In this document: piece after piece, positions 42,468-62,796 of the stretch
Layout: every line of letters starts with the position of its first letter
Position numbering within the stretch: the stretch's first letter is position 1
Source: Sorghum bicolor
Lineage: Eukaryota > Streptophyta > Magnoliopsida > Poales > Poaceae
DNA: 64,000 nucleotides
Assembly: GCF_000003195.3 (NCBI RefSeq)
Contig: NC_012878.2
Location: 23,580,071-23,644,070 of the forward strand
Direction of reading: 5' to 3'
Notes under the pieces: model-generated
What the model saw: only the letters and a program-made list of their open reading frames with translations
Told to the model about the DNA's origin: nothing
Databases searched by the model: none
Translations under genes and position numbers: made by a program

Positions 42468-43277
42468 AAGGTTTAGCGAATTACTGTTCATAAGTACGCT
42501 CTAAACTAAACTTAAACCGGTTTAATGAGATATTATTATTAATTAATGATAATCAAGGTGTCAAACTAAGTTTTTGGAAACTATCTAGTGTGCCATGGTC
42601 ATATCCTTTATGCCCAGTTAAGGACTCTAAGGTGGCTAGTTAAGTGCTAACCTGGGGGTTAATGCATCATATTTCTATTTCGTCACTCATATGGCGTGCA
42701 ATAGTATGAGTACCATTCATTTGAGTGGTAATGTATGGATCAATTCTTCCTCTACGCCTCGATAAGTGGGAGCTATGAGAGCATGATCGGATACACTGCC
42801 GATCTAGGGAAATGTTGTTAGGTGCTGTGTCATGCACACATGTTTGGTGTGCCTGGAAACAGTACCGCATGTTGGGGAATTCCGTCCTGAGAGGCGATGC
42901 CGTCACTAGGGCGATGATGGGGGTAGTAACACGTCATATGCATGGACAGGGTGTCTATGTGTGTGGGGTGTATAGCTTTAAATTCTTGTTCTGCATGTTC
43001 ATACTGTGGTTGGGCTGAAATGAGTTTCCTGCAGGTACACCAACCACGTTCCCGCCTAGCACGCTAGTTGCGTTACGAGAGAACGTTGTGTGCCACTGCA
43101 TATACCAATTAGTGTTAACTTTTGTTTCTAAGTTTGTGAGATCATAAGTTCATTCATGCATCATGTTCATTTCATATCATTGGTTACTTCCCTCCCTTAA
43201 AGTAAATATGTCTCAATTTTAATTAAGTTAATAAAAGGTACTCCTCAATCTTACCCAAGGAATTCCATTTGCAGCAG

Positions 43278-44321
43278 ATGGCACGCACTAAGCTCACCGC
43301 TCACAAGTCCACTGGTGGGCCGGCCCCTCGCCATCAGTTGGCAGCCAGGAGCTCGCGTCATAAGCGCAAGTTCCTGGAGGAGTCTGGGATGCCCACCTTG
43401 CTATGGAGGGTGCTCAGTTCGATGGGGTATCCCGAAGGAAGGGAACCTCGCTACTATTGTAACAAGGAGCAGCTTGGTGACGGGACCCTGGTGGGGATCG
43501 AGGCAGTGGTCCCTACAAGCGGAGGTGACCCCGTTTGGGGCGGCTGGGTGTACGAGTCTTGAGGTACCACGCCTTTTCACGGTGCCAGCAGAGCAGCTTT
43601 TGCAGTTCTGAGGGACCTCATGGAGAGGTTTCCACAGGAGTTGGCCCACGCCTTCGATGGGGTGTTTCCCCGGGGTGACCCCTACACTTTGGTGTGGGAT
43701 CAGTCCGAGGTGAATGCTCTAGAGAGGAGTGCGGATGAGGACTAGCATAGTGACAGCGCAGCTATGAGTGCTATGTACGCCTTGATGAAGACCTATGGGG
43801 GCCTAGAGTGTTGTTTGGGGCGCTTGTCCGGCTCTCCTCTCACAGTCCAGGATGAGAAGCGCCAGCTGCAGCGTGAGTTCGACACTGAGGTTTAGAGGTT
43901 GCAGGCAAAGTTGGCCCGCATGATCCGAGAGAAGGATCAGGCGGTCCAGAAGAACAGTGTGCTGAGTCAGGACCTGCTTGCAGTGAGAGAGCAGAGGGAC
44001 AGGGTGACTACTGCTCATAGGAACTGCGAGTGCATGCTAGTTCATGTGCTTGGTCAGAGGAATGAAGCCTGGCACGAGGAGGACACCCTGAGGGCCCGAC
44101 AGTTAGAGCTTGAGCAGCAGCTAGCCAATGCTGAGGAGTACAATGAGAACCTGCATGAGGAGATCCATCAGCTGCATAACCAGCTCCACCCTCACCACCT
44201 ACCTGGAGCAGCTGAGTTAGACTCTGAGGATGAGATGGATGAGGATCCAGAGATAGAGGCAGCTGCTAGTGGAGATGAGGACGAGGAGGGCTCCGGCATG
44301 GACAGTGACCATAGCGAGTAG
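43278..44321 (+). pseudogene. ORF0 of H: histone H3-tail-like N-terminus, coiled coil, acidic tail
   Basis: A single frame of 347 codons with three stops: TGA 43560, TAG 43743 and TAG 43893. The ATG at 43278 is chosen because it starts the H3-like reading. Residues 2-22 match the H3 tail at 17 of 21 positions (ARTKLTAHKSTGG, then PAPRHQLA). K4, K9, S10, T11 and R17 are kept; K14 and K18 are changed. A compact region follows (about residues 25-150, YYCNKEQLGDGTLVGIEAVV, WVYES), then a Glu/Gln coiled coil (from about 43860) and a strongly acidic C-terminus (DSEDEMDEDPEIEA). There is no histone fold. Extra ORFs upstream of gag are known in RIRE3/RIRE8; the function of this one is unknown. Confidence 0.8.
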
Positions 44322-44646
44322 ATGCTAGGGCTCTAGAGATAGTCCTTCTTCTTTTGTTGTTGTTGTTGCATGGCATGTCTTGTAATCTGTGGATCTGGGC
44401 TGTGTGAAACTTTATGTAATGACGCTAAAAGTCCAGTGTGTGTACACTGGCAATCTTGGATGTATGTGAACCCTGTTGCTCGAATGTTAAGTAATCTGTT
44501 AGTGATTTTGTGTGTGGATGATTAATTGTTGTGCCTCTGTTTATTGTTCGAATTTATTTTCCTCAGTAAATTCAGTACGGCGTAATTCTACATATGTCTA
44601 CCATTGATGGCAACTCCTAATGATTGCTTATCGTTGACGCATGCAG

Positions 44647-45740
44647 ATGGTGCAAACACGTGGCGGGGGTAACAGCAACCCCGGTCTTGGAGCAGGTACT
44701 TCCGGAGGTGGGGCTCAACGATATGAGGAAAGAGCACCATCACCGCCACCACCACCGCCTCCTCCGTACACTGCGAACGTGTTTTTCGCGCAGTTCCTAG
44801 GAAGCCAACGCAACATGGAGCAGATGCAGCGCAACATGGAAGAAGCCCTGCGCAATATCGCTGACAATACTCATCATGGGGATAACCAGGGCGGCCGTGA
44901 AGCCAATCAATACAGCTCTTTCAAGGACTTCATGGATACCAAGCCACCAGTCTTCAAGGAGGCCCTGGAACCGCTCGAGGCAGATGAGTGGATTAACACC
45001 ATGGAGCAAAAGTTCCATTTTCTTCGGATGACTGAAGAACTTAAGGCTGAGTATGCGGCACATTAGTTGTAGGGACCTACTGGGATTTGGTGGTCCCATC
45101 ATCGTACCACCTACCTAGAGGGAACCCCAATCACCTGGAACCGCTTCACCACCACTTTTTGAGGAAATTATATTCCTCCGGTTTTGGTGGAAATGAAGGT
45201 TGGGGAGTTCATGAGGCTGTCCTAGGGAACAAAGTCGGTGAAGGAATACCTACACGCTTTCAATAGTCTTGCTCGCTACGCCCCTGAGTTTCTGAACACG
45301 GAGGCCAAGAAAATCGCTAGTTTCTAGCGAGGCCTGAGCCCGAAGATGCTGAAGACCATGGGTACAGGAGCCCGAGCTACCTTCAATGCTTACATCAGTG
45401 ACTGTCTGACCTAGGAAAACAATAACAACAACTACAGCGCATCCAAGTCTCGTAAGAGGGCCTTTGAAGCCGGGTCATCTCAATCCAGGGCACCAATGGC
45501 AGGGCGATAGCAGTATCGTCCTCCTGCCCCAGGTGCTAGGTTCCGACCGCCGCAGAGAAGGAACACCGGGCACCCAACGCAGCAGAAGCCGTACAAGGTG
45601 GCAATAGCTCCTGCCAAGCCAAAAGCAGTTCAAGCTGCGGCAACTGCCGCCAACAACCTGACCAAGGGGCCATGCTACAACTGCCACAAGATGGGGCACT
45701 TTGCTAAGGAATGTCCCTACCCCAAGAGGCAGCAGACGAC
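44647..45740 (+). pseudogene. gag: Chromovirus gag of H
   Basis: ATG 44647 (MVQTRGGG) is chosen over the ATG two codons upstream as the usual start wording. The frame carries PPVFKEALEPLEADEWINTMEQKF, a worn core (TWNRF, VGEFMRL, VKEYLHAFNSLARYAPEF) and the CCHC knuckle CYNCHKMGHFAKEC (45674-45715). Seven in-frame stops (45064, 45070, 45160, 45223, 45325, 45412, 45508) interrupt it, each one base from CAG or CGA except where uncertain. No frameshift is needed to read it through. Confidence 0.82.
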
Positions 45741-46300: not shown

Positions 46301-47627
46301 ATACCAAGTACCACACCGATATCTAGAAGGCCATACCGGATGCCGCCTAATGAGCTCGCTGAGTTGAAAAATCAACTAAAGGAGCTATGGATAAAGGGTT
46401 CATCCGGCCATGTTTGTCAGAATGGGGTTGTTCGGCGTTGTTTGTGAAAAGAAGGATCAATCGCTGCGCATGTGCGTGGACTATCGTCCACTCAATGTGG
46501 TGACAATCAAGAATAAGTATCCATTGCCAAGGATTGATATCTTGTTTGATCAGTTGTCCAAGGCAAAAGTGTTTTCCAAGATAGACTTGAGGTCCGGGTA
46601 TCACCAAATCAAGATCCGTCCGCAAGATATCCTGAAGACTGTTTTTTCCACCAGATATGGATTGTACGAGTATCTTGTCATGTCCTTCGGGTTGACAAAT
46701 GCTCCTGCAAACTTCATGTATCTGATGAATTCGGTCTTTATGCCAGAATTAGACAAGTTTGCTGTGGTGTTCATCGATGACATTCTGGTTTATTTAGAGA
46801 ATGAGCAAGATCACGCTGAGCATCTAAAAGTTGTGCTAACACAACTACGAGAGCATCAGTTGTATGCAAAGTTCAGCAAGTGCGAGTTCTGGCTGAAGAA
46901 AGTTCCTTTCCTAGGGCACACTCTGTCTGAAGAAGGGATTGCAGTGGATCCGTCAAAAGTACATGAAGTCATGGACTGGAAGGCACCAACTTCTGTCTCG
47001 GAAGTTCGGAGTTTTGTTGGTCTGGCCTGCTATTATCGTCGTTTCATACCCGACTTCTCCAAGACTGCTAAGCCGATGACCAGTTTGGTACAAAAGGATC
47101 ATAAGTTTGTCTGGACGAAAGGGTGTGAGCTAGCCTTCCGCACCTTGCGAAAGTTGCTAACCACCGCTCCCGTTCTAGCGCAACCCAATATCGAGAAGCC
47201 TTTTGATGTGTTTTGCGACGCATCGAAAAGTGGATTAGGATGTGTGCTAATGCAAGACGGCAGAGTAATAGCTTACGCTTCACGACAGTTGAGAACGCAC
47301 GAAGTCAACTACCCAACTCACGACCTCGAGTTAGCAGCAGTGGTGCACGCTTTGAAGAGCTGGAGGCACTATTTGTTAGGAAATAAATGTCATATCTACA
47401 CCGATCATAAAAGTCTGAAGTACATCTTCACTCAGTCCGAGCTGAATATGAGGCAACGAAGATGGTTGGAGCTGATCAAGGATTATGATCTGGAGGTGCA
47501 CTATCATCCAGGCAAGGTTAATGTAGTAGCAGACGCACTGAGTCGCAAACCGCACTATCAAATGGTTCAACCGTTGTTTGAGGATGGTTTCAATCTCATG
47601 CATCCTGAAGTCTTATGTCACATATAG
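46301..47627 (+). pseudogene. Reverse transcriptase and RNase H of H
   Basis: Frameshifts near 46284 and 46405 separate the finger start ([13 protein letters not shown]) from an open 406-codon frame at 46410-47627. That frame contains [44 protein letters not shown], the active site VFIDDILVY (intact), the thumb, and RNase H ([42 protein letters not shown]). It ends with an in-frame TAG at 47625-47627. Confidence 0.88.
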
Positions 47628-49087
47628 CTTAGTTGTTCACTTGAGAGTCATCGAAGGTCAGAAAACAGAAAAGGGAATTTTCCACATCAAAGAGAAGATC
47701 AAAAACGACCCAAGGACTCAATTCAGAGTTGATGAAAAAGGGGTATTGTGGTTTCAACACCGGCTAGTAGTTCTGAAGAATCGAGAATTAAAGAATCGCA
47801 TCATGGTTGAAGCACATCTCTCCAAGCTTTCTATTCATCCTGGCAGGAGTAAGATGTATCAAGACATAAGATCTCACTTTTGGTGGACTAAAATGAAGAA
47901 AGAGATAGCAGGATATGTGGCCCGTTGTGACACGTGTTGTAGTCAAGGCTATACATATGAAACCTGCAGGTCTGTTACAACCGTTGTTAGTTCCAGACTA
48001 GAAATGGGAAGAGGTCAGCATGGACTTTATCACAGGCTTACCGACAACACGAAAGGGAAATGACTCGATTTGGGTAATCATAGATCGATTGACCAAGTCG
48101 GCTCATTTCATTCTAGTTAAGAACACATACAGGCCTCTCGAGTATGCTGATATATATATGGCTGAGATCGTCAAGTTACATGGCATTCCCAAGACCATCA
48201 TATCAGATAGAGGACCACAGTTCACCGCTCACTTTTTGGAGCGAATGCATAAGAGTTTGGGGACTAGTCTGATAAGGAGCACCGCATATCATCCCCAAAC
48301 CTCAGGTCAAACGGAAAGACTCAATCAAGTGCTCGAAGATATGTTGAGGGCATGCGTGTTATCATCCAAGGGATCATGGGAATCCTGGTTACCGTTGGCT
48401 GAATTCTCATACAATAATAGCTATCAAGAGAGTATCAAGATGGCTCCGTTTGAAGTTGTGTATGGTCGAAGATGTAGGACCCCGTTAAACTGGGTCGAAC
48501 CTGGTGAAAGGAGATACTATTGTATAGACTTCGTGAACGAAGCCGAGAAGAAAGTACAAATTATACAACAACACATGAGAGCAGCGCAATCACGACAGAA
48601 GAGTTATGCAGACAAGCGGAGAAGACCACTTGAGTTTAAAGTGGGTGACTATGTTTACCTCAAGGTTACGCCAATGAAGAAAGTTCAGCGTTTCCGAGTT
48701 CGAAGCAAGCTTGCGCCCAGATACGTGGGACCGTATCAGATACTAGAAAGAAAAGGGCCTGTGGCCTACAAGATTCAATTACCTGAAGAGTTGAGTTCGA
48801 TCTTCCCAGTCTTCCATGTGTCATAGCTACGGAAATGTTTGAAAGTACCCGAGCAGAGGGTTGAACCCCGAGGAATCAAAATAAAAGCAGACTTGGAGTA
48901 TAAGGAGCAGCCAGTGGGTATCGTAGATACCAAGGAGCGGGTAACCTAAAACAGAGTTGTCAAAACATACAAGGTGGTGTGGAGTCATCATGATGATAGA
49001 GATGCCACCTGGGAAACCGAGGATTATCTAAAAACAGTTTACCCAAAATTTCATAAGAAATGGTTAGTAACCCAAATCTCGGGATGA
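47628..49087 (+). pseudogene. int: Integrase with C-terminal chromodomain of H
   Basis: Zinc-binding part: HLSKLSIHPGRSKMY and ARCDTCCSQ. A deletion/frameshift at about 47960-48020 is followed by MDFITGLPTT (first Asp), IISDRGPQF (second Asp) and SGQTERLNQ (Glu) in 48020-48826. The GPFK-like module is LAPRYVGPYQILERKGPVAY. TAG at 48824-48826 and TAA at about 48946 interrupt the C-terminus. It encodes a chromodomain: KTYKVVWSHHDDRDATWETEDYL, then YPKF (about 48955-49055). Chromodomains of this group are thought to steer integration to heterochromatin. Ends with TGA at 49085-49087. Confidence 0.85.
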
Positions 49088-49110: not shown

Positions 49111-50167
49111 TGTAACACCCTAGGTGTTAAGCATGCACTTAGTCTCCTAAACTCATCTATAAGCATCTCATCAAGCCTAGCATTGCATGAACATGTCTTT
49201 CACTCAAAGTATGATTTTATGTGCCTTATTTATGTGAATTAAATATGGTAAAAATATCATGCTTGCTTCTAAATTCTTGAATTGTCCAAATTAAGTTGAA
49301 ATGAGTGTTAGAATATTTAAGAGTAATTTTGTGATATTTTTGGAGCCATAGAAATTGGGAAATTGATTTTATACTAAAATTCCCAAAATAGATTTATTTA
49401 AAAACCTATAACTAGTTTTGGGTTGTATTCCAAAATCTATTTGGAATTTGTGAATTCAACTTAAAGCAAAGTTGTAGGGTTTTTGTTTTGGAACAACTTT
49501 TATTTTGGGAGAAAAAGGTGAAAATGATTTTTAAATAGTCCAAATGAATTTAGAAACAATTTGAGAAAAGAAATTCAAAAATAAGAAAAAGGAAAAGGGG
49601 GGCGCTAGCAGGCCGCGGCCTCACTTCTGGCCCGCTGGCCGAAGCCGGCCCAGCCCGCCCGCGCTCACCCCCCCTTCCCCGCGCTCGCGCCCGCGCCGTG
49701 TCCGCGCACGGACAGCCGTGCCGCGCCGCCGTGGCGAGCCGGCAGAGCTCGGCCGCTGCTTGGCGAGCATGCGGCAGCCTGGACGCGCCCTGGTCGGTCA
49801 CCAGGAGCACCCGGCCACGCCCGCCTCCGTCCTCGCTGCCATTTGCGCCCGCCAGCCCATCCTCTCTCGCCCTCTCGCTCTCGCTCCGCACGCACAGAGC
49901 GCCGCCGTCGCCATTGGAGCCCGAGCTCCGCCTCAACCGTTCTCCCCCAGCGCGTGCACCATTCTCCGATTCGTTCTCCCCCGAGCTCCGCCCTCGCTCC
50001 GCCGTTGCGGGACACGGTTCCGAGCGTTTGGTGAGGCACGGTGAGCCCCGCTCGCCCTCGTTTCTTCTCCGGCGAGAGCACCACTGCCGCGCGCGTAGTC
50101 TGCATGCATCCGTGCCTTCCGGTGCCGCTTAGTTAGCGCGTCGTGCTCGCCTTGGCACCGTGACGCT
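49111..50167 (+). repeat. 3' LTR of H, 5' part, with a GC/CpG-rich block
   Basis: It starts TGTAACACCCTAGGTGTTAAGC, as in RIRE3/Retrosat-type LTRs. The first 480 bp are AT-rich. From about 49598 to 50165 the composition switches sharply to GC-rich with many CpG, including an inverted CGGCC-rich start. It ends at the F1 insertion (ACGCT left flank). Short frames in the GC-rich block on both strands reflect composition and are not supported as genes. Confidence 0.7.
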
Positions 50168-51399
50168 TGTTGATATTTGGTAACGCAATTAGAAAATGAT
50201 CCGCAAGCGCACGGATATCGGTGAAAATTTCACCCGGGAGGTTATCCAGAGTTATCGTATTTATATTTTTACCACTGGGAGAAAGTGTGCATCTGACTAA
50301 CCAAATCTATTGCTACTACCCCTTTAGGCTACAAAGAATGTTTCTCGATGTGAGTGATGTATAGAGAAGACTGCAACCGTAGTCTCGTTCTAACCTTGGT
50401 AAGGATGATCTACTGTTCTATTAGGGAGGCTCACGGAATCTAGACAACACAAAGGATGTTCGACCCGCACCTATAAACCTACTCGTCCTGCTAACGAGAT
50501 GTGATCTACAAAGGTAACTCGGAAATGTCACGTTCCTCGCTACTACCACGGTCCAGCTAGTCAGGGGATATCTATGAGTACCCTAGCCTAAACACCACGT
50601 TTACGCTAACAAGTGATTACTCTAATACTCAACCGGAAGAGGATTAAAGTAAACTCATAAACCAAAGAACAATAAAACAAGAACTTACTAGTATTAGAAG
50701 TCGAATTACTGAAGAATCTTAGAAGCAAGCCTCGGGTTAGGAGACTTGATCCCGTAGGTACAACTCAGAGTAGACACCGACAGGCCGGCCTTCCTCCGAT
50801 CCATACCTCCACTCTATCTCTCTCAATCTAGTAGAAACTAGAAGATCTATTTCTACTTTACATTGGTTGCTAAGCCTAAAAAGAAATATTATTTAGAGAA
50901 GAGGTTTTCCTTCGAGGGCACCCCTCAATCTCTATGATAATTTCTTGTCTCCTCCAGGGGCCAGAGGGGGTCTCCTTATAGTCCTCCCCTTCTATGCGTT
51001 TTTGGGTCGATAGGCGAGGTGGTACTATGTTATTCTGGATCCAATAGGTCGGTGGAACGTCGTGTGCGAAGAGAGTCCGGAACGGAGTCCAGAGGTGGGC
51101 GGGCGCCCAGGTCCTCAGGGCGGGCGCCCTGGGCCTGGCCCCTTTCGGGCTCTGCTTCCTTCCCGTGGCTTCTGGAGTCTTCTAGATGGTAGAAAATTGC
51201 GGGGTGGGTTGATATCTCTATGTAACCCCGACATGTGGGCCTTTCTTCATTATTTCCTGATAACCCCTTGCAGAAATAGACAAACACCAAAACTCGTAGA
51301 ATTCTGTCAGATAAAACCCTAAGTCTGGGTGTTGGTTGCATTTGGATCCTTTTCTTTATTTATTTGATGATTATATTTGGTACTTAAGGACCGTCAACA
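50168..51399 (-). repeat. 3' LTR of F1
   Basis: 1232 bp, TGTTGACGGTCC (minus, at 51399) to AAATATCAACA at 50168. GGGCGGGCGCCC motifs lie near 51096-51133. Its TATA region reads CCTTATAGTCC on the plus strand, two bases shorter than in the other LTR (CCTTATATAGTCC), so this copy has a weaker TATA. Confidence 0.88.
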
Positions 51400-53270
51400 A
51401 CTCCCCCAAGCTTACCTCTTGCTCGTCCCTGAGCAAGGATGGACTCAAGAGTTTCTGCAGTGGTTTTATTTCTTAGAAGTACACACGCATTTAAGCAAGA
51501 TCTCATCTCTGAGTTAGAATAAACTGTTAAGACTTAAAACTTACTCATTTTACCTTTCACCATGGGGCTTGTAACGTCACTTGTGTCTTGAGCAGTTAAA
51601 AGATAGAACGGTCAAGTCAAGCACCATGTATCTTGTTCTTTGATCAACTATAGCTCTGGAGTTTTTGCAGATTTTCAAATAAAACTCAGAGATTCCTTGT
51701 ATAATTCTCTCAAGTCTCTCTTTTGTGGTATTTCTGGATCCTTACCAAGGCAGTAATGGGATATGCCTTCTCTCACAGTATGTGGTATTTTTGGTATGAG
51801 GCATAGTGATATTGCCTTCTCTCTCACCCTACTCTAGTAAGGTTTTGATATCTGGAGCTCATAGGTGGGAGACAGCTAATACATACTTACAAGACATTTA
51901 TTGCATAGTCAAACCATGGATACAGAGAAACAAGTCAATAAGTCAAATCAAGATGTGCATGTGTGGCGAGTGAATGGTGTATGGTGATGATGGAGATAAC
52001 AATGGTGAAAGTCTAATTCTACTTTTGCTCTTTTAAGGGGATACATACCTTTCTTGCACTTAGAAGCTTTTTGGGGAGAATAGATGCTCTATATTTTCTT
52101 TTTCTTACCTCTCAGGTGGGTATCTTGTACACTTTTTCTTTTCTTCGAGGTTCCAGGCACTTGCCCCTTTTTATTTCCGCGTATATTTTTTTTTCTCTCT
52201 TTTTTTTAGAGCACTCATCTCCTGAAATAATGTAGCAAGTGGTAGTAACCAAAATAACTGGAGCATTTATTTCACAAGGGGAAACAGAAATATTTTTGGT
52301 TATTCTCTCCCGGATTAGGAGTAGAATACTTTTGGGTGGTTTTGGAGATGGAAATGAGTGGATATATGTGGATGGTACTTCCGGAGTAGAAGTAGCATGT
52401 AAGAGTGAACGTGCAAGTGAATCTTGATTTAACCACATGACAAGCTCCTAAGGGTCTACACAGCTTGACCACACTCAATGCTCATAAGCAGTAAATAGTA
52501 AATGTGTGGCTCAAGGTCTAGCAAGCATGTATATATGCTGTGGTAGGAATTTAAACTCTCATCATACAGGAACTCATCATGCAACATTTTAAAGATTTTC
52601 AAAGATAAAATTCTCCAGAATTCTAGCATCTCTAGGAACAGATAAACAGCAGCTCAACCTTCCCATATCGTATCCGTTAACAACTTAGACTTCAGATCAA
52701 GTTTTCATCCCACAAATTTAGGTCTAGAGCAAGCCTTAAATTATAACACTTATATCTAAACTTGAGAGAGAACTTCAAATTTGCAAATTAGGCAGAGTAA
52801 CTATTCATCATATCCATGCTTAAGTTTTATTAGATACCGATTAGCATAGCCACTTTATTTATTTATTAAACACACTAAGCAAAATATATATAAGCATAAA
52901 ATATTTATTTGGTTTTTTATAGTTATGTGTATTTATATTCTAAAATAATATAAGTATGAAGATAGATAGAAATACTTATCGAGGTAAATGGGGGTGCTCT
53001 CCCCCAAGCTGAATTTTGACGTAATTTCTCTTGATGTAGCTAGCAGGTGGCAGAGGTGTATTTGAAAGTCAGCAGCATTCTGACAGCAATTAGAATGTCC
53101 TCCGTCTGCTAGTCTTCTTGATTCTTAAATTCTGTGGAGCTCAAATAGACAACAAAGCTTGTGGAACTCTTGGCAAGGCGTTCGGTGTTTTTAAGTCCTC
53201 CGAATGGGACTCCTTGTGTTTTCAGTCATCCTGGGATTAGCTAGGTGGCGTAGTCGGTGATTCCGGTGGC
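51400..53270 (-). other. Non-coding 3' part of F1 internal region
   Basis: AT-rich sequence where Athila-type pol would be expected. It starts after the polypurine tract (minus GCTTGGGGGAGT next to the LTR). It has long T- and A-runs and no RT or integrase motif in any frame I can see. The same stretch is repeated at 57776-59640 in F2. Confidence 0.7.
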
Positions 53271-53419
53271 GCCTCCTCTTTGTGTATAACTATGTTCTCT
53301 TTCCACACCTGACTCGGTGCTACGGTCTCCTCAGGACAGTTCTGTTCAAGTTGTATGTCTTCAGTCCTTATCACTTTTCCTTCGTAGTCTACCCGTCCGT
53401 CCTTGATGATTTGCCTCCT

Positions 53420-53814
53420 CTAGTTGCGGTTGCGTTGTCTTCTTCTTGTCCTGACCTGCTTAGAATCTTCAACTATATAGTTAGGGTCAGTAAAATAACG
53501 GCGTACCTTCTCTGAGGGGAAGTGCATATGGACTTCTCCGGTTCCAATGTAGATAATTGCTTTAACGGTACTGAGGAACGGTCTTCCAAGGATGGTGGAT
53601 GGATCATATTCGTCTTCTCCCATATCAATGACCTGAAAATTGTCTGAAGCTGAATGTATCTTGGTTGTAGGGGCATGGTTCCGTGCAGGAGGTGATAAGT
53701 GACTGCGGCCATTATGTTGTCGTCAGATCCGGTGTCGTAGAGTGTCTTCTGAAAAGAGTATTCGTTGATTGTGCACTTGATGCTTGAAACACCAGGGTCG
53801 TTCTTCTTGATCAA
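53420..53814 (-). pseudogene. Protease-like region 2 of F1 (DTGS motif; frameshifted)
   Basis: The minus strand encodes CTINEYSFQKTLYDTGSDDNIM, a retropepsin active site (DTGS), then shifts frame near 53640 to YDPSTILGRPFLSTVKAIIY, the GRP half of the fold, followed by a basic Arg-rich tail. The F2 copy has the same shift, so it predates their duplication or is tolerated. Confidence 0.7.
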
Positions 53815-53926
53815 GAAAGGTCACTTGAGTCGACGATCTTGACCTCCTTGAGCTGCAGTGACCATCTCAGCTGACTCGGTCCACATTTGCTTGTTCTTCT
53901 TCCTCCTGTTGGTCCTCTTCCTTGGT

Positions 53927-54260
53927 TCATGTTAGGATTGCTCTGAAGTTTGTGTAGTCTTGTTCTTGAAGGAAAGTCTCCTTCTTCCCCTTGATGTAGA
54001 AACGGATCTTGGCAGCATTAGCGTAGATGACAGCTCTGGTGTTTAGGAATGGCCTCCCTAAGATGATGGGTGCTCTCTCATCATTTCCGGTCTCTACCAC
54101 TACGAAGTCTGCTGGGGCATACAAGGTACCAACTCGGACACAAAGGTTCTTCAATATTCCTTTTGGAAAAGTTATCGCCTGATCTCCATTGTGTTTGTGC
54201 TTGTAGATCCCGGTTCTTCACATGATGGAATCTGGGAGTTGTAAAACGCCTTCACGTTTC
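53927..54260 (-). pseudogene. Protease-like region 1 of F1 (GRP half only)
   Basis: From 54260 the minus strand reads GDQAITFPKGILKNLCVRVG, then FVVVETGNDERAPIILGRPF and AVIYANAAKIRF. This is the second half of an Athila-type retropepsin. The DTG half upstream is not recognisable and a TGA lies near 54219. With the region at 53420-53814 it makes two protease-like units in tandem. Confidence 0.65.
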
Positions 54261-55495
54261 TCAAAATGTGTCCTGCTCATAGAGACAAGGCAGAGATCAA
54301 GTGCATGGGCCCTGTTGGTGGAAAACACCAACAGAACCAAAAGTGTATTTGTTCTTCTCTAACCTTAAGCATAGTGAGCAAGACAAAGTTGATGGATCAT
54401 GAGTGTAGCATTTAAAACATTTGTTAGATCAGATGGCTCAACCTAATGGAAAGATAATCTATCTATATTTATGTTTTGTTTATATCTTCCAAAGATTGAA
54501 TGTGCAATACTTTAGCTTATATGATTAGGAGTGTGGGATCACAAAGGTAGTACCAAGAACAAAGATTAAAGGACTAAACATGTTGAATTAATTGGGTTGA
54601 TTAATTTGGAGCCACAAATCATACATGTTTGTCTCTTTATTTTATGTGAACGCTAGAACCAAGGAGAAGTTTATAAAAGTGATAGTCAAGTACCTTAAAA
54701 TGTTACCTTACCTGAGGAGTGACGGTACAGTATCACCTTGTGGAAGCTTTCCTTTCTTAGCGGTTGTGCATCGTGTTTGTGGCACCCTCCATAGATCATA
54801 TCTTTATGATGAATGAGCTATGTCCTTCTTGTGCAAATTGTTAAACTTCATGTGTCTCCTTTATCTCCAATGAGTTTGTATCTCAGGACTTCCCAGGTTG
54901 ATATTGAAAGTTTTCCTGCAGGGGTTAGTCCAACAAAATATACCAATATCTACTCAAGCAGTTTTTAGTTCAGTAACCAAACTAGACTCCATGTCTAATC
55001 AGATTAAGGAAGGCTATTTAACCTAAGCACCACGCTTAATTTAAATGCCATTGGAAGTGTGTCTAGTACTTCCAAACTAACACTTACTAGGATAAACAAA
55101 GGTAGCATGATGGCTTTTATAGAGATCTACTCAAGTGGAGATGAAGTAGTGTGATTAGTATTTAACAAATTGAGTATGTCTCAAAGGTAAGGACAACCAA
55201 CATAGCAACATGGCAAAGGATGTTTTATGTAAAGTACTCCCCCAAGCTTGAATTTTGCAAAATTCAAGATTGGATGAATTTAATTTAATGTTGCATGATG
55301 ATTGGTTGGGCATACCTTGCGCTTGTCATTCATCCGATCTTCTTGCTCCAATCCTAGAAAGGTTAGTGGCAAGAATACCCGAAGGAATATTTCTACAATT
55401 ATCTTTATATGCTCAATACACAAGGCAATGTTGCAAATAATTAGAAGTGCTTGTTTTAGGACACTAAGCTTGTCCTTGGGAAACCATCAATTAAC
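54261..55495 (-). other. Spacer between gag-like and protease-like parts of F1
   Basis: Non-coding, AT-rich, without RT motifs. The short frames inside are not conserved proteins that I recognise. The region is also present at 60637-61871 in F2. Confidence 0.55.
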
Positions 55496-56422
55496 TCAAC
55501 GAGATCTGCAATATTTATTATAGACATATGCATCGACAACCGCTCTTTTAAAGTTTTTATAAATAGAAAAGAAGAGAGGGTTGGAGATCTCAAATGTGAT
55601 AAGGATGGAGAGACTAATTGATTGGAGAGATGTTTTATATGAGCAAGGACTGGGTAAGGTATTTATGAAATAACTTCCATGCTCACTGTTGTTTCTCTCA
55701 TTCTCAAACTCCAAGGATGATTCTTCATGAATGCTAAAAATTCCTCTAGGATTGTCTCTCAAGTTTGTTTTATCTATCCATTCAATGGTGATAGCACATG
55801 GATTTTTAATGCCCTCTAGCCATTGATGTTGCTCTTCTCGATCCTCCTTCTTATGCATGGGATGTCTAGATAGATTTATAGGATTATCGGGAGGTTCAAG
55901 AGAAAGAGCATAGTAGAAATTGTTAAGCTCAAGGATGGGTTGGATAGCCGAATCATGGGATTGGAATGTTTGGAAATCGGCTATTGAAACTTCCTTTCCT
56001 TGTCTGGGAGATGATTCCTTCTCTATCTCTAAGATTTTTCTATGAAGACTAGTGCAAGAAGGATGTCCACAAATGAAGACATACCTTCCTTTACTAATAG
56101 ATAAAGAAAGAAGGACTCCACCAAAGGTTATATGATTAAGACCAATGTGAAAATATCGAGAAAAAACATGGTCTTGTAGGGCTAGGTCTAAACCAGAATT
56201 TATAGAAAGATTAACAGATTCCCTAGGTGTAGCTAAAAGGGCATTATCTTCTTGATTAAAAGATAGGACCTCGGCTATAGAAAAGGGTTGGTTTTGACCT
56301 ATTGCAATCAACTCCGGACACAGATCATAATTAGGGGCAGGACGTGTTGACTCCCATGGTCTATGGCTGATCTCCGAAGGTGCAAAGAATTCAATAATAG
56401 GTATGGAATTTGAGTTATCCAT
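55496..56422 (-). CDS. Gag-like ORF of F1 lacking the gag core
   Basis: 309 codons, ATG 56422 (MDNSNSIPII) to TAA at 55496. The N-terminal 50 residues and C-terminal third resemble E gag: PELIAIGQNQPFS against PEYIEFVQKQPF, LEIEKESSPRQGKEVSIA against LEKEKEPVPRQEEEVSIA, and CSYKTSLQSIS near the end. The central capsid-like segment of E (about 150 residues, WKLFPFSLTGKARHW to DLMSGK) is missing, with an unrelated stretch of about 80 residues in its place. A longer reading from 56602 enters the LTR and is not used. Intact here. Confidence 0.7.
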   Translation of the reverse strand: MDNSNSIPIIEFFAPSEISHRPWESTRPAPNYDLCPELIAIGQNQPFSIAEVLSFNQEDNALLATPRESVNLSINSGLDLALQDHVFSRYFHIGLNHITFGGVLLSLSISKGRYVFICGHPSCTSLHRKILEIEKESSPRQGKEVSIADFQTFQSHDSAIQPILELNNFYYALSLEPPDNPINLSRHPMHKKEDREEQHQWLEGIKNPCAITIEWIDKTNLRDNPRGIFSIHEESSLEFENERNNSEHGSYFINTLPSPCSYKTSLQSISLSILITFEISNPLFFSIYKNFKRAVVDAYVYNKYCRSR

Positions 56423-56515
56423 AAAGATAAAAATAAAAAGATAAAAGAATAAAAGTATAAAAGTATAATACAAGATAATAGCAAGACTCAAAGTTATCTC
56501 AGCAAACCGTCTTTC

Positions 56516-56533
56516 TCCCAGGCAACGGCGCCA
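56516..56533 (-). promoter_or_regulatory. Primer binding site of F1
   Basis: The minus strand reads TGGCGCCGTTGCCTGGGA, 8 bp after the LTR end, one base different from E at 26877-26894. Confidence 0.78.
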
Positions 56534-56541
56534 GAAATGCT

Positions 56542-57775
56542 TGTTGATATTTGGTAACGCAATTATAAAATGATCCGCAAGCGCACGGATATCGGTGAGC
56601 ATTTCACCCGGGAGGTTATCCAGAGTTATCGTATTTATATTTTTACCACTGGGAGAAAGGGTGCATCTGACTAACCAAATCTATTGCTACTACCCCTTTA
56701 GGCTACAAAGAATGTTTCTCGATGTGAGTGATGTATAGAGAAGACTGCAACCGTAGTCTCATTCTAACCTTGGTAAGGATGATCTACTGTTCTATTGGGG
56801 AGGCTCACGGAATCTAGACAACACAAAGGATGTTCGACCCGCACCTATAAACCTACCCGTCCTGCTAACGAGATGTGATCTACAAAGGTAACTCGGAAAT
56901 GTCACGTTCCTCGCTACTACCACGGTCCAGCTAGTCAGGGGATATCTATGAGTACCCTAGCCTAAACACCACGTTTACGCTAACAAGTGATTACTCTAAT
57001 ACTCAACCGGAAGAGGATTAAAGTAAACTCATAAACCAAAGAACAATAAAACAAGAACTTACTAGTATTAGAAGTCGAATTACTGAAGAATCTTAGAAGC
57101 AAGCCTCGGGTTAGGAGACTTGATCCCGTAGGTACAACTCGGAGTAGACACCGACAGGCCGGCCTTCCTCCGATCCATACCTCCACTCTATCTCTCTCAA
57201 TCTAGTAGAAACTAGAAGATTTATTTCTACTTTACATTGGTTGCTAAGCCTAAAAAGAAATATTATTTAGAGAAGAGGTTTTCCTTCGAGGGCACCCCTC
57301 AATCTCTATGATAATTTCTTGTCTCCTCCAGGGGCCAGAGGGGGTCTCCTTATATAGTCCTCCCCTTCTATGCATTTTTGGGTCGATAGGCGAGGTGGTA
57401 CTATGTTATTCTGGATCCAATAGGTCGGTGGAACGTCGTGTGCGAAGAGAGTCCGGAACGGAGTCCAGAGGTGGGCGGGCGCCCAGGTCCTCAGGGCGGG
57501 CGCCCTGGGCCTGGCCCCTTTCGGGCTCTGCTTCCTTCCCGTGGCTTCTGGAGTCTTCTAGATGGTAGAAAATTGCACGGTGGGTTGATATCTCTATGTA
57601 ATCCCGACATGTGGGCCTTTCTTCCTTATTTCCTGATAACCCCCTGCAGAAATAGACAAACACCAAAACTCGTAGAATTCTGTCAGATAAAACCCTAGGT
57701 CTAGGTGTTGGTTGCATTTGGATCCTTTTCTTTATTTATTTGATGATTATATTTGGTACTTAAGGACCGTCAACA
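56542..57775 (-). repeat. 5' LTR of F1, also serving as 3' LTR of F2
   Basis: 1234 bp, nearly identical to 50168-51399. On the left it is followed by the F1 primer site; on the right by the polypurine tract (minus GCTTGGGGGAGT) of F2. One LTR is thus shared by two units. Confidence 0.88.
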
Positions 57776-59613
57776 ACTCCCCCAAGCTTACCTCTTGCTC
57801 GTCCCTGAGCAAGGATGGACTCAAGAGTTTCTGCAGTGGTTTTATTTCTTAGAAGTACACACGCATTTAAGCAAGATCTCATCTCTGAGTTAGAATAAAC
57901 TGTTAAGACTTAAAACTTACTCATTTTACCTTTCACCATGGGGCTTGTAACGTCACTTGTGTCTTGAGTAGTTAAAAGATAGAACGGTCAAGTCAAGCAC
58001 CATGTATCTTGTTCTTTGATCAACTATAGCTCTGGAGTTTTTGCAGATTTTCAAATAAAACTCAGAGATTCCTTGTATAATTCTCTCTAGTCTCTCTTTT
58101 GTGGTATTTCTGGATCCTTACCAAGGCAGTAATGGGATATGCCTTCTCTCACAGTATGTGGTATTTTTGGTATGAGGCATAGTGATATTGCCTTCTCTCT
58201 CACCCTACTCTAGTAAGGTTTTGATATCTGGAGCTCATAGGTGGGAGACAGCTAATACATACTTACAAGACATTTATTGCATAGTCAAACCATGGATCCA
58301 GAGAAACAAGTCAATAAGTCAAATCAAGATGTGCATGTGTGGCGAGTGAATGGTGTATGGCGATGATGGAGATAACAATGGTGAAAGACTAATTCTACTT
58401 TTGCTCTTTTAAGGGGATACATACCTTTCTTGCACTTAGAAGCTTTTTGGGGAGAATGAGATGCTCTATATTTTCTTTTTCTTACCTCTCAGGTGGGTAT
58501 CTTGTACACTTTTTCTTTTCTTCAAGGTTCCAGGCACTTGCCCCTTTTTATTTCCTCGTATATTTTTTTTCTCTCTTTTTTTTAGAGCACTCATCTCCTG
58601 AAATAATGTAGCAAGTGGTAGTAACCAAAATAACTCGAGCATTTATTTCACAAGGGGAAACAGAAATATTTTTGGTTATTCTCTCCCGGATTAGGAGTAG
58701 AATACTTTTGGGTGGTTTTGGAGATGGAAATGAGTGGATATATGTGGATGGTACTTCCGGAGTAGAAGTAGCATGTAAGAGTGAACGTGCAAGTGAATCT
58801 TGATTTAACCACATGACAAGCTCCTAAGGGTCTACACAGCTTGACCACACTCAATGCTCATAAGCAGTAAATAGTAAATGTGTGGCTCAAGGTCTAGCAA
58901 GCATGTATATATGGCTGTGGTAGGAATTTAAACTCTCATCATACAGGAACTCATCATGCAACATTTTAAAGATTTTCAAAGATAAAATTCTCCAGAATTC
59001 TGGCATCTCTAGGAACAGATAAACAGCAGCTCAACCTTCCCATATCGTATCCGTTAACAACTTAGACTTCAGATCAAGTTTTCATCCCACAAATTTAGGT
59101 CTAGAGCAAGCCTTAAATTATAACAGTTATATCTAAACTTGAGAGAGAACTTCAAATTTGCAAATTAGGCAGAGTAACTATTCATCATATCCATGCTTAA
59201 GTTTTATTAGATACCGATTAGCATAGCCACTTTATTTATTTATTAAACACACTAAGCAAAATATATATAAGCATAAAATCTTTATTTGGTTTTTTATAGT
59301 TATGTGTATTTATATTCTAAAATAATATAAGTATGAAGATAGATAGAAATACTTATCGAGGTAAATGGGGGTGCTCTCCTCCAAGCTAAATTTTGACGTA
59401 ATTTCTCTTGATGTAGCTAGCAAGTGGCAGAGGTGTATTTGAAAGTCAGCAGCATTCTGACAGCAATTAGAATGTCCTCCGTCTACTAGTCTTCTTGATT
59501 CTTAAATTCTGTGGAGCTCAAATAGACAACAAAGCTTGTGGAACTCTTGGCAAGGCGTTCGGTGTTTTTAAGTCCTCCGAATGGGACTCCTTGTGTTTTC
59601 AGTCGTCCTGGGA

Positions 59614-60263
59614 TTAGCTAGGTGGCGTAGTCGGTGATTCCGGTGGCGCCTCCTCTTTGTGTATAACTATGTTCTCTTTCCACACCTGACTCGGTGCTAC
59701 GGTCTCCTCAGGACAGTTCTGTTCAAGTTGTATGTGTTCAGTCCTTATCACTTTTCCTTCGTAGTCTACCCGTCCGTCCTTGATGATTTGCCTCCTCTGG
59801 TTGCGGTTGCGTTGTCTTCTTCTTGTCCTGACCTGCTTAGAATCTTCAACTATATAGTTAGGGTTAGTAAAATAATGGCGTACCTTCTCTGAGGGGAAGT
59901 GCATATGGACTTCTCCGGTTCCAATGTAGATAATTGCTTTAACGGTGCTGAGGAACGGTCTTCCAAGGATGGTGGATGGATCATATTCGTCTTCTCCCAT
60001 ATCAATGACCTGAAAATTGTCTGAAGCTGAATGTATCTTGGTTGTAGGGGCATGGTTCCGTGCAGGAGCTGATAAGTGACTGCGGCCATTATGTTGTCGT
60101 CAGATCCGGTGTCGTAGAGTGTCTTCTGAAAAGTGTATTCGTTGATTGTGCACTTGATGCTTGAAACACCAGGGTCGTTCTTCTTGATCAAGAAAGGTGA
60201 CTTGAGTCGACGATCTTGACCTCCTTGAGCTGCAGTGACCATCTCAGCTGACTCGGTCCACAT
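59614..60263 (-). pseudogene. Protease-like region 2 of F2
   Basis: Same frames as in F1: NEYTFQKTLYDTGSDDNIM in 59850-60263, and YDPSTILGRPFLSTVKAII with an Arg/Gln-rich extension in 59614-60000 (128 codons, ending PTTPPS). The extension is open here but interrupted in F1. The frameshift is shared. Confidence 0.7.
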
Positions 60264-60303
60264 TTGCTTGTTCTTCTTCCTCCTGTTGGTCCTCTTCCTT
60301 GGT

Positions 60304-60636
60304 TCATGTCAGGATTGCTCTGAAGTTTGTGTAGTCTTGTTCTTGAAGGAAAGTCTCCTTCTTCCCCTTGATGTAGAAACGGATCTTGGCAGCATTAGCG
60401 TAGATGACAGCTCTGGTGTTTAGGAATGGCCTCCCTAAGATGATGGGTGCTCTCTCATCATTTCCGGTCTCTACCACTACGAAGTCTGCTGGGGCATACA
60501 AGGTACCAACTCGGACACAAAGGTTCTTCAATATTCCTTTTGGAAAAGTTATCGCCTGATCTCCATTGTGTTTGTGCTTGTAGATCCCGGTTCTTCACAT
60601 GATGGAATCTGGGAGTTGTAAAACGCCTTCACGTTT
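60304..60636 (-). pseudogene. Protease-like region 1 of F2
   Basis: Identical in wording to 53927-54260 of F1 (FVVVETGNDERAPIILGRPF), with the same missing DTG half. Confidence 0.65.
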
Positions 60637-61872
60637 CTCAAAATGTGTCCTGCTCATAGAGACAAGGCAGAGATCAAGTGCATGGGCCCTGTTGGTGGAA
60701 AACACCAACAGAACCAAAAGTGTATTTGTTCTTCTTTAACCTTAAGCATAGTGAGCACGACAAAGTTGATGGATCATGAGTGTAGCATTTAAAACATTTG
60801 TTAGATCAGATGGCTCAACCTAATGGAAAGATAATCTATCTATATTTATGTTTTGTTTATATCTTCCAAAGATTGAATGTGCAATACTTTAGCTTATATG
60901 ATTAGGAGTGTGGGATCACAAAGGTAGTACTAAGAACAAAGATTAAAGGACTAAACATGTTGAATTAATTGGGTTGATTAATTTGGAGCCACAAATCATA
61001 CATGTTTGTCTCTTTATTTTATGTGAACGCTAGAACCAAGGAGAAGTTTATAAAAGTGATAGTCAAGTACCTTAAAATGTTACCTTACTTGAGGAGTGAC
61101 GGTACAGTATCACCTTGTGGAAGCTTTCCTTTCTTAGCGGTTGTGCATCGTGTTTGTGGCACCCTCCATAGATCATCTCTTTATGATGAATGAGCTATGT
61201 CCTTCTTGTGCAAATTGTTAAACTTCATGTGTCTCCTTTATCTCCAATGAGTTTGTATCTCAGGACTTCCCAGGTTGATATTGAAAGTTTTCCTGCAGGG
61301 GTTAGTCCAACAAAATATACCAATATCTACTCAAGCAGTTTTTAGTTCAGTAACCAAACTAGACTCCATGTCTAATCAGATTAAGGAAGGCTATTTAACC
61401 TAAGCACCACGCTTAATTTAAATGCCATTGGAAGTGTGTCCAGTACTTCCAAACTAACACTTACTAGGATAAACAAAGGTAGCATGATGGCTTTTATAGA
61501 GATCTACTCAAGTGGAGATGAAGTAGTGTGATTAGTATTTAACAAATTGAGCATGTCTCAATGGTAAGGACAACCAACATAGCAACATGGCAAAGGATGT
61601 TTTATGTAAAGTACTCCCCCAAGCTTGAATTTTGCAAAATTCAAGATTGGATGAATTTAATTTAATGTTGCATGATGATTGGTTGGGCATACCTTGCGCT
61701 TTTCATTCATCCGATCTTCTTGCTCCAATCCTAGAAAGGTTAGTGGCAAGAATACCCGAAGGAATATTTCTACAATTATATTTATATGCTCAATACACAA
61801 GGCAATGTTGCAAATAATTAGAAGTGCTTGTTTTAGGACACTAAGCTTGTCCTTGGGAAACCATCAATTAAC

Positions 61873-62796
61873 TCAACGAGATCTGCAATATTTATTATAG
61901 ACATATGCATCGACAACCGCTCTTTTAAAGTTTTTATAAATAGAAAAGAAGAGAGGGTTGGAGATCTCAAATGTGATAAGGATGGAGAGACTAATTGATT
62001 GGAGAGATGTTTTATATGAGCAAGGACTGGGTAAGGTATTTATGAAATAACTTCCATGCTCACTGTTGTTTCTCTCATTCTCAAACTCCAAGGATGATTC
62101 TTCATGAATGCTAAAAATTCCTCTAGGATTGTCTCTCAAGTTTGTTTTATCTATCCATTCAATGGTGATAGCACATGGATTTTTAATGCCCTCTAGCCAT
62201 TGATGTTGCTCTTCTCGATCCTCCTTCTTATGCATAGGATGTCTAGATAGATTTATAGGATTATCGGGAGGTTCAAGAGAAAGAGCATAGTAGAAATTGT
62301 TAAGCTCAAGGATGGGTTGGATAGCCGAATCATGGGATTGGAATGTTTGGAAATCGGCTATTGAAACTTCCTTTCCTTGTCTGGGAGATGATTCCTTCTC
62401 TATCTCTAAGATTTTTCTATGAAGACTAGTGCAAGAAGGATGTCCACAAATGAAGACATACCTTCCTTTACTAATAGATAAAGAAAGAAGGACTCTACCA
62501 ACGGTTATATGATTAAGACCAATGTGAAAATATCGAGAAAAAACATGGTCTTGTAGGGCTAGGTCTAAACCAGAATTTATAGAAAGATTAACAGATTCCC
62601 TAGGTGTAGCTAAAAGTGCATTATCTTCTTGATTAAAAGATAGGACCTCGGCTATAGAAAAGGGTTGGTTTTGACCTATTGCAATCAACTCCGGACACAG
62701 ATCATAATTAGGGGCAGGACGTGTTGACTCCCATGGTCTATGGCTGATCTCCGAAGGTGCAAAGAATTCAATAATAGGTATGGAATTTGAGTTATA
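61873..62796 (-). pseudogene. Gag-like ORF of F2 without its start codon
   Basis: The reading matches F1's 55496-56422 with few changes, but the first codon lies beyond the breakpoint at 62796. A fused reading begins at 62820 (MVWRSNIKY) in element I sequence and is in frame by chance. It is therefore a truncated or chimeric ORF. Confidence 0.7.

Follow-up and report, generated by a model that had tools for sequence, protein, structure and literature searches.

A conserved histone H3-like tail at the start of ORF0 in a Tekay/RIRE3-RIRE8-type retrotransposon lineage of Sorghum bicolor

Introduction

Chemical marks on histone H3 help to silence transposable elements. Why, then, would a protein of such an element begin like H3 itself? 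The question is raised by a 64,000-nucleotide stretch of Sorghum bicolor DNA, analysed as a whole and called the window here, in which an additional open reading frame (ORF0) of a Ty3/gypsy-type element was noticed by a first-pass annotation to start with a near-copy of the H3 tail.

ORF0 has been described in Retrosat2, RIRE3 and RIRE8, was not found outside grasses, and was modelled as hydrolase-like, with no settled function, according to the available text of PMC3485330. The available text of PMC11728184 describes 5′ additional ORFs (aORFs) of Tekay elements as predicted nuclear, with a weakly DRBM-like fold in maize and sorghum; a sorghum Sb7 5′ aORF is among those described, and a sunflower 5′ aORF is reported to be without sequence similarity. 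In the part of PMC12085086 that treats mimicry by transposable elements in plants, histones appear as silencing marks and as PRC2 targets.

Results

ORF0 of the window and its host element

ORF0 occupies positions 43278..44321 of the plus strand. The copy is dead: it carries three premature in-frame stops (43560, 43743 and 43893) ahead of the final stop at 44319; sister copies are open over 345-347 codons. After the Met encoded at 43278, 17 of 21 residues equal H3 residues 1-21, and the stretch reads ARTKLTAHKSTGGPAPRHQLA. The H3-tail-like block, Met plus 23 residues, covers 43278..43349 (+). As a control, 2,262 ATG contexts of the window, taken from either strand, were scored; one had 17 matches and the next best had 7. 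The near-copy of the H3 tail noted earlier was thus borne out, and chance resemblance was rejected.

A phmmer search of all PDB chain sequences with the 94-residue open piece gave 130 matches at E<=10 (best E 4.9e-5). All 60 of these that were listed were H3 or H3-type chains, including Cse4 and H3/CENP-A chimeras. Two of the alignments covered residues 1-24 and 2-27, and the H3 matches stopped by about ORF0 residue 29. At E<=10, Pfam returned no match for this piece or for the first 120 residues of a second ORF0 subfamily described below, so that no histone fold follows the tail in either. A real histone gene, whether H3 or an H3 variant, was rejected on this ground, in agreement with the first-pass annotation.

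That annotation had also placed a coiled coil and an acidic end downstream of the tail, and both features are present, the former as a coil-like region. A middle domain of the FLEEFGMPTLLWR type lies at 43371..43646 (+) and is missing from the short ORF0 classes considered below. The coil-like region at 43848..44183 (+), which the short classes share, gave weak coiled-coil Pfam matches below the cut-off. The acidic C-terminal tail lies at 44184..44318 (+); in the sister copy L010, the last 40 residues include 17 D/E and zero K/R. The N-terminal end is basic: five ORF0s have 8-11 K/R among their first 35 residues. Directly abutting the ATG is the acceptor-like catttgcagcag (43266..43277, +), a candidate splice site by its sequence; AG immediately precedes the ATG in the second subfamily too. 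The gag-type ATG at 44641-44660 also stands directly after CAG (gcagATGGTG), as the ORF0 ATG does, and both could be acceptor-like.

ORF0 is an extra ORF upstream of gag-pol, preceding the ORF that starts at 44641. The broken start of a gag-type ORF1 (44641..45066, +) was assigned by position only and had no Pfam match. It is followed on the plus strand by pol pieces with Pfam matches to reverse transcriptase and RNase H (46410..47627) and to integrase (48020..48826), which is the gypsy order. A stop-interrupted putative remnant of an integrase C-terminal chromodomain follows at 48890..49051 (+; Pfam Chromo, E 5.1e-4, 20.3 bits, below the 25.1 cut-off). From this anatomy and the available text of PMC11728184, the element was placed as Tekay/RIRE3-RIRE8-type. 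Paired long LTRs of ~3 kb are expected of such elements; a blastn self-comparison of the window (pairs >=150 bases) found no LTR pair around this one, and the copy may be truncated.

Other repeats were seen in the window. Just downstream of the element, 50165-56418 and 56539-62795 are head-to-tail copies of ~6.25 kb, 99% identical and separated by 120 bases; a minus-strand ORF of 368 codons (55496-56602) crosses their junction and had no Pfam match at E<=0.01. Direct repeat pairs of 73-95% identity (6-2525/13497-15800, 20577-22339/23765-25528 and 22759-23238/30784-31262) are likely parts of other elements.

The tail in the main ORF0 family

A search of the S. bicolor genome with the window piece gave at least 150 matches among 2,206 candidates. 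Nearly all of those listed were on contigs C1-C10, and many matches of this main family lay in open frames of 345-364 codons. One copy, at G000:C7:41976678-41976959, lies inside an open frame of 1,345 codons, whose length exceeds that of ORF0 by far. The family was sampled at 60 loci, 30 from the window-piece search and 30 from a search whose matches fell in the coil region. One of the main-family searches used a tail-containing query; in the 30 coil-region loci, the match began only at about residue 26 of the query. A readable tail was found in 58 of the 60 loci, the window copy included, and in neither L066 nor L073. The tail as a private feature of the window copy was therefore rejected, being present in further copies of this family and of the second subfamily.

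All 58 copies have K9, S10, T11, G13, A15, P16 and L20, and 57 have T3, A7, G12, R17 and A21. A1 and R2 were found in 56, R8 in 52 and Q19 in 23. Lysines 14, 18 and 23 occur in none, and residue 23 is R in every copy. K4 occurs in a single copy, that of the window. The first-pass annotation had counted K4 among the retained residues; AAG is found there only in the window copy, codon 4 being AGG (Arg) in 56 of the 58 and TGG (Trp) in one, and K4 was dropped as a supporting point. The window's subfamily has Arg at residue 4 and Leu at residue 5. The reported replacement of R8 by His (CAC) holds for the window copy and fails as a family trait, since Arg codons stand there in 52 copies, CAC in 5 and TGC in 1; His8 is decay of the window copy. 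Both K4 and H8 of the window are thus changes of that copy.

Among the 24 copies with at least 340 open codons, all 16 H3-equal positions were invariant, and variation was confined to positions 4, 14, 18 and 19. A Fisher test on the variable positions (p 0.004) is partly circular, as varying positions are likelier to be scored non-H3, and was given no weight. Over the whole ORF0, pN/pS was 0.15 (19 distinct open copies); main-family ORF0 is under purifying selection. The tail alone had a pN/pS of 0.53, from few sites, versus 0.12 and 0.14 elsewhere in ORF0, and this was counted against a mimic reading.

A second long subfamily found without the tail

The database protein P0023 starts at MPTLLWR, downstream of the tail. 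Used as query, it found five S. bicolor copies that are 92-99% identical to it and, at about 40% identity, the main family. Because the coil-region loci and this second subfamily were matched without the tail, they are the less biased tests of its presence. The starts of four second-subfamily copies were fetched. All four begin MARTKQTARKSTGG and read MARTKQTARKSTGGRAPRG; three continue with QLAPR and the other with PLAPR. The H3 match is 19/21 in three copies and 18/21 in the fourth, and the first 13 residues are exact. Against PDB sequences, the first 120 residues gave 131 matches (best E 2.8e-6); the 60 listed were all H3 or H3-type chains, again with Cse4 and H3/CENP-A chimeras.

The bodies of the two subfamilies are 39% identical. 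In a comparison of a second-subfamily copy with L010, 18/23 tail residues were identical versus 123/315 in the rest (Fisher p 3e-4), with different codons at 11 of the 18 residues common to both tails. The tail had pS 0.58, pN 0.19 and a dN/dS of about 0.19; the rest of ORF0 had pS 0.65, pN 0.43 and a dN/dS of about 0.44. Synonymous sites are near saturation in both parts, and dS exceeds 1 between the subfamilies. Of 293 stretches of 23 codons taken from the body, one was as conserved as the tail. The middle domain (51/93 identical) is more conserved between subfamilies than the non-tail part as a whole, and the higher identity of the tail over this domain alone was not significant (p 0.057). 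The H3-like tail is a family trait, not a one-copy feature, and it stays recognisable while the rest of ORF0 diverges to 39% identity.

Short ORF0 classes and 103 tails

Database protein searches with ORF0 queries returned 44 proteins in one case and 944 in another, of which the best 120 were listed. Two short classes emerged, whose complete-looking members have about 170-210 residues and consist of tail, coil and acidic end, without the middle domain. The parts common to long and short ORF0s are the tail, the coil-like region and the acidic end. Class A tails read like MARTKRTARKSAGGRAPRHRLAPREP and class B tails like MARTKKTPRKSTGPKGVPRHQLAPR, and the tail of the long protein P0011 reads MARRRLTAHKSTGGRVPRHQLAER. 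In most class A tails T11 is Ala, and class B has one inserted residue as well as Pro7; these points were counted against a mimic reading. Relatives of class B are abundant in S. bicolor (at least 150 matches, 2,396 candidates), and nearly all start at query residue 1 in this search, which used a tail-containing query. The single class B copy read from S. bicolor starts MARQKQTPRKRTGPKGVPRHQLAPR, with Arg in place of Ser10.

The tail was visible in 40 of 147 database proteins; the others are truncated or have their start called further downstream. A protein search scoring residues 1-45 alone gave 6 candidates and one match, P0003, which starts inside the tail, and no new tails; this outcome would be expected if the start of many records is called too far downstream. 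A pattern scan of viral contigs with the ORF0 alignment gave 17 pattern matches, of which zero were confirmed.

In all, 103 tails were compiled: 58 from the main family, 4 from the second subfamily, 28 from class A and P0011, and 13 from class B. Of these, 41 were recognised by resemblance (the 40 database rows and the one S. bicolor class B copy), and conservation in classes A and B is inflated because their rows were picked in this way. L20 is found in all 103, K9 and P16 in 102, S10 in 101, K4 in 45, K14 in 13 (class B only), and K18 and K23 in none. Position 4 sets the window's subfamily, which has Arg, apart from the second subfamily and the two short classes, which have Lys. The match thus reaches well past one copy: over the four ORF0 kinds, K9, S10 and most of the block are kept, and K4 in some kinds. 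Over the tails compiled here, the resemblance therefore withstood the refuting condition named by the first-pass annotation, namely confinement to one copy or loss of the ARTK and K-S-T-G-G positions. Two other early statements needed qualification. The loss of K18 applies throughout and that of K14 outside class B; K9 and S10 are retained almost everywhere, T11 being the exception in most of class A.

Origin of the tail

In S. bicolor, the H3.3-type genes L039, L040 and L041 have intact starts; in all three, the first coding exon runs from Met to K23 and the next exon starts AARKSAPTTGG. L042, an H3.3-type gene with a broken start, has the same exon boundary. The last residue of the ORF0 block is likewise residue 23; every long-class and class B tail has R there, as do 22 of the 27 class A tails. 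Beyond it the classes continue with SSRHK, TTFRE, EPRPE, NDGAS or VSRRH, which match neither H3 (AARKS) nor one another consistently. Because the block ends where H3.3-type exon 1 ends, its sequence suggests that it probably arose by capture of that exon. In L041, tgcag immediately precedes the ATG, and AG likewise does so in both long ORF0 subfamilies. Convergent evolution of an H3-like tail, the other conceivable source, would explain why the DNA likeness to H3 genes adds nothing past the common residues: base identity of the long subfamilies to the intact-start H3 genes (L031-L041) is 43-50/69, with no capture signal beyond those residues. A functional limit at residue 23 would, moreover, give the same end point as a captured exon. 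Convergence is nevertheless improbable: the second subfamily equals H3 at thirteen residues in a row, the register begins with the residue that follows Met, and the block stops at the exon boundary.

Three further H3-like genes or remnants (L043, L044 and L045) start ARTKCTARKS, ARTKCWARRS and ARTKSTARNS; they have diverged from H3, and their H3 match ends after L20.

Discussion

A possible decoy for H3K9 writers and readers

On H3, the core T-x-R-K9-S-x-G is methylated by SUVH-type enzymes and bound by H3K9 readers. ORF0 offers an H3-like peptide with a modifiable lysine in this context, K9 being kept in all but one of the 103 tails. Judged by sequence, ORF0 probably serves as a functional H3-tail mimic of some kind. 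Given this likeness in the ORF0 of an abundant family, the element may show a false histone tail to the silencing machinery.

If Met is removed as in H3, mature ORF0 would start Ala-Arg-Thr. The coiled coil would dimerise the protein and show paired tails in the absence of a nucleosome, two tails per dimer resembling a nucleosome's display. Host H3K9 enzymes of the SUVH type might then methylate or bind the core, and readers that recognise H3K9 or the N-terminus of H3 might bind the ORF0 tail as well. Abundant ORF0 could in this way act as a soluble decoy and weaken silencing of the element. The loss of K18 and K23 would take away acetylation sites, and K4R in the main subfamily would take away the K4 mark; with Arg at residue 4 and Leu at residue 5 there, readers requiring K4 would miss this tail.

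A decoy for H3K9 writers and readers is favoured because the constant core is the SUVH and reader site of H3, because the tails are carried on a coiled coil, and because acetylation sites have been lost. The best explanation overall, which we put at about an even chance, is that ORF0 of the Tekay/RIRE3-RIRE8-type lineage may be a histone-tail mimic working as a soluble decoy that weakens silencing. That ORF0 is specifically a decoy against silencing seems a reasonable but not quite even prospect. Put in full, and more tentatively, a captured H3.3-type exon may have long been used as a dimeric, nucleosome-free tail, with K9 kept and K18 and K23 lost, that occupies the host H3K9 machinery.

Other readings of the conserved tail

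The constancy of K9 in 102 of the 103 tails would equally suit a tether, in which chromodomain or Agenet-type readers, or the integrase chromodomain of the element itself, bind the K9-methylated tail, and the tail thereby guides the pre-integration complex to H3K9me chromatin. A putative remnant of such an integrase chromodomain is present in this element, and chromodomains can direct integration to H3K9me chromatin according to the available text of the review PMC12477314. However, plant group II chromodomains are described in the available text of PMC12786077 as lacking the aromatic cage, and free ORF0 would compete with chromatin for one and the same reader; we regard targeting of this kind as unlikely. 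The basic stretch of the tail could also serve nuclear import alone, or act as an importin or histone-chaperone binding site. The 8-11 K/R near the N-terminus suit such a handle, as does the nuclear localisation predicted for the grass 5′ aORF proteins analysed in PMC11728184 (available text). A basic signal, however, needs no constant T6, S10, G13, P16 and L20, and the changing residues include K4, K14 and K18, although the replacement is often R or H, with charge kept. A role limited to import or chaperone binding is accordingly quite improbable.

A further reading places the activity in the middle domain, as an RNA-silencing suppressor with a DRBM-like fold, and makes the H3-like tail an accessory. 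Speaking for it is the Foldseek likeness to a DRBM protein that is reported for aORF proteins of sorghum (Sb7) and maize (Tekay), with TM 0.35-0.37 (available text of PMC11728184), as does the better conservation of this domain (51/93) than of the non-tail remainder between subfamilies. The middle domain does not match a DRBM sequence profile, however: Pfam at E<=10 was empty for four middle-domain pieces, and a domain profile run against PDB sequences at E<=10 found only ribosomal protein S17 (E 0.52). The short classes, moreover, have the tail without this domain, and we consider the suppressor reading very doubtful. That the tail is an inert relic, an H3 exon that supplied the start codon context and was kept only because the lineage is young, was already disfavoured. 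It would account for the same score in many copies and for the tail pN/pS of 0.53 within the main family, but the tail holds 18/23 residues between subfamilies at dS >1, and ORF0 has a pN/pS of 0.15 within the family; this reading is scarcely credible.

Novelty and comparison with known systems

The word "histone" occurs 0 times in the main texts of PMC3485330 and PMC11728184 and in the available text of PMC7264820, and "histone", "ORF0" and "mimic" occur 0 times in that of PMC13317346. The 5′ ORF and its weakly DRBM-like fold are already published. The H3 resemblance appears to be unreported, as the first-pass annotation had supposed; no report of it was found in the literature searched.

A conserved H3 tail hands ORF0 a directly testable function. 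If the mimic reading is true, a transposable element responds to silencing that works through histones by carrying a histone copy of its own. The family also amounts to a natural experiment on the importance of single H3-tail residues to writers and readers, with K9 kept, K18 and K23 always replaced, and K4 replaced in one subfamily.

Histone mimics reportedly include the influenza NS1 tail, the automethylation site of G9a and the SNAG domain bound by LSD1. Like these, ORF0 carries a methylatable lysine in a short H3-like peptide that is not part of a histone. It differs from them in having ~20 residues in the true N-terminal register, in belonging to a retrotransposon, in being apparently exon-derived, and in being kept across subfamilies. 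The 5′ aORFs of RIRE3, RIRE8, Retrosat2 and Tekay resemble it in lying upstream of gag-pol, in their long C-terminal helix and disordered parts, and in their occurrence in grasses; the main texts describing them, in contrast, make no mention of histones (PMC3485330, PMC11728184). The VANC proteins of VANDAL elements are likewise encoded by a transposable element and directed against epigenetic silencing, but are described as sequence-specific in the available texts of PMC10398659 and PMC5735166, whereas the proposed target of ORF0 is the histone-tail machinery. The AlkB-type demethylase domain of orchid Ty3/gypsy elements is, like the ORF0 tail, an extra regulatory domain in a plant gypsy element; as presented in the available texts of PMC9289625 and PMC12786077, it is an enzyme domain, whereas that of ORF0 is a histone tail.
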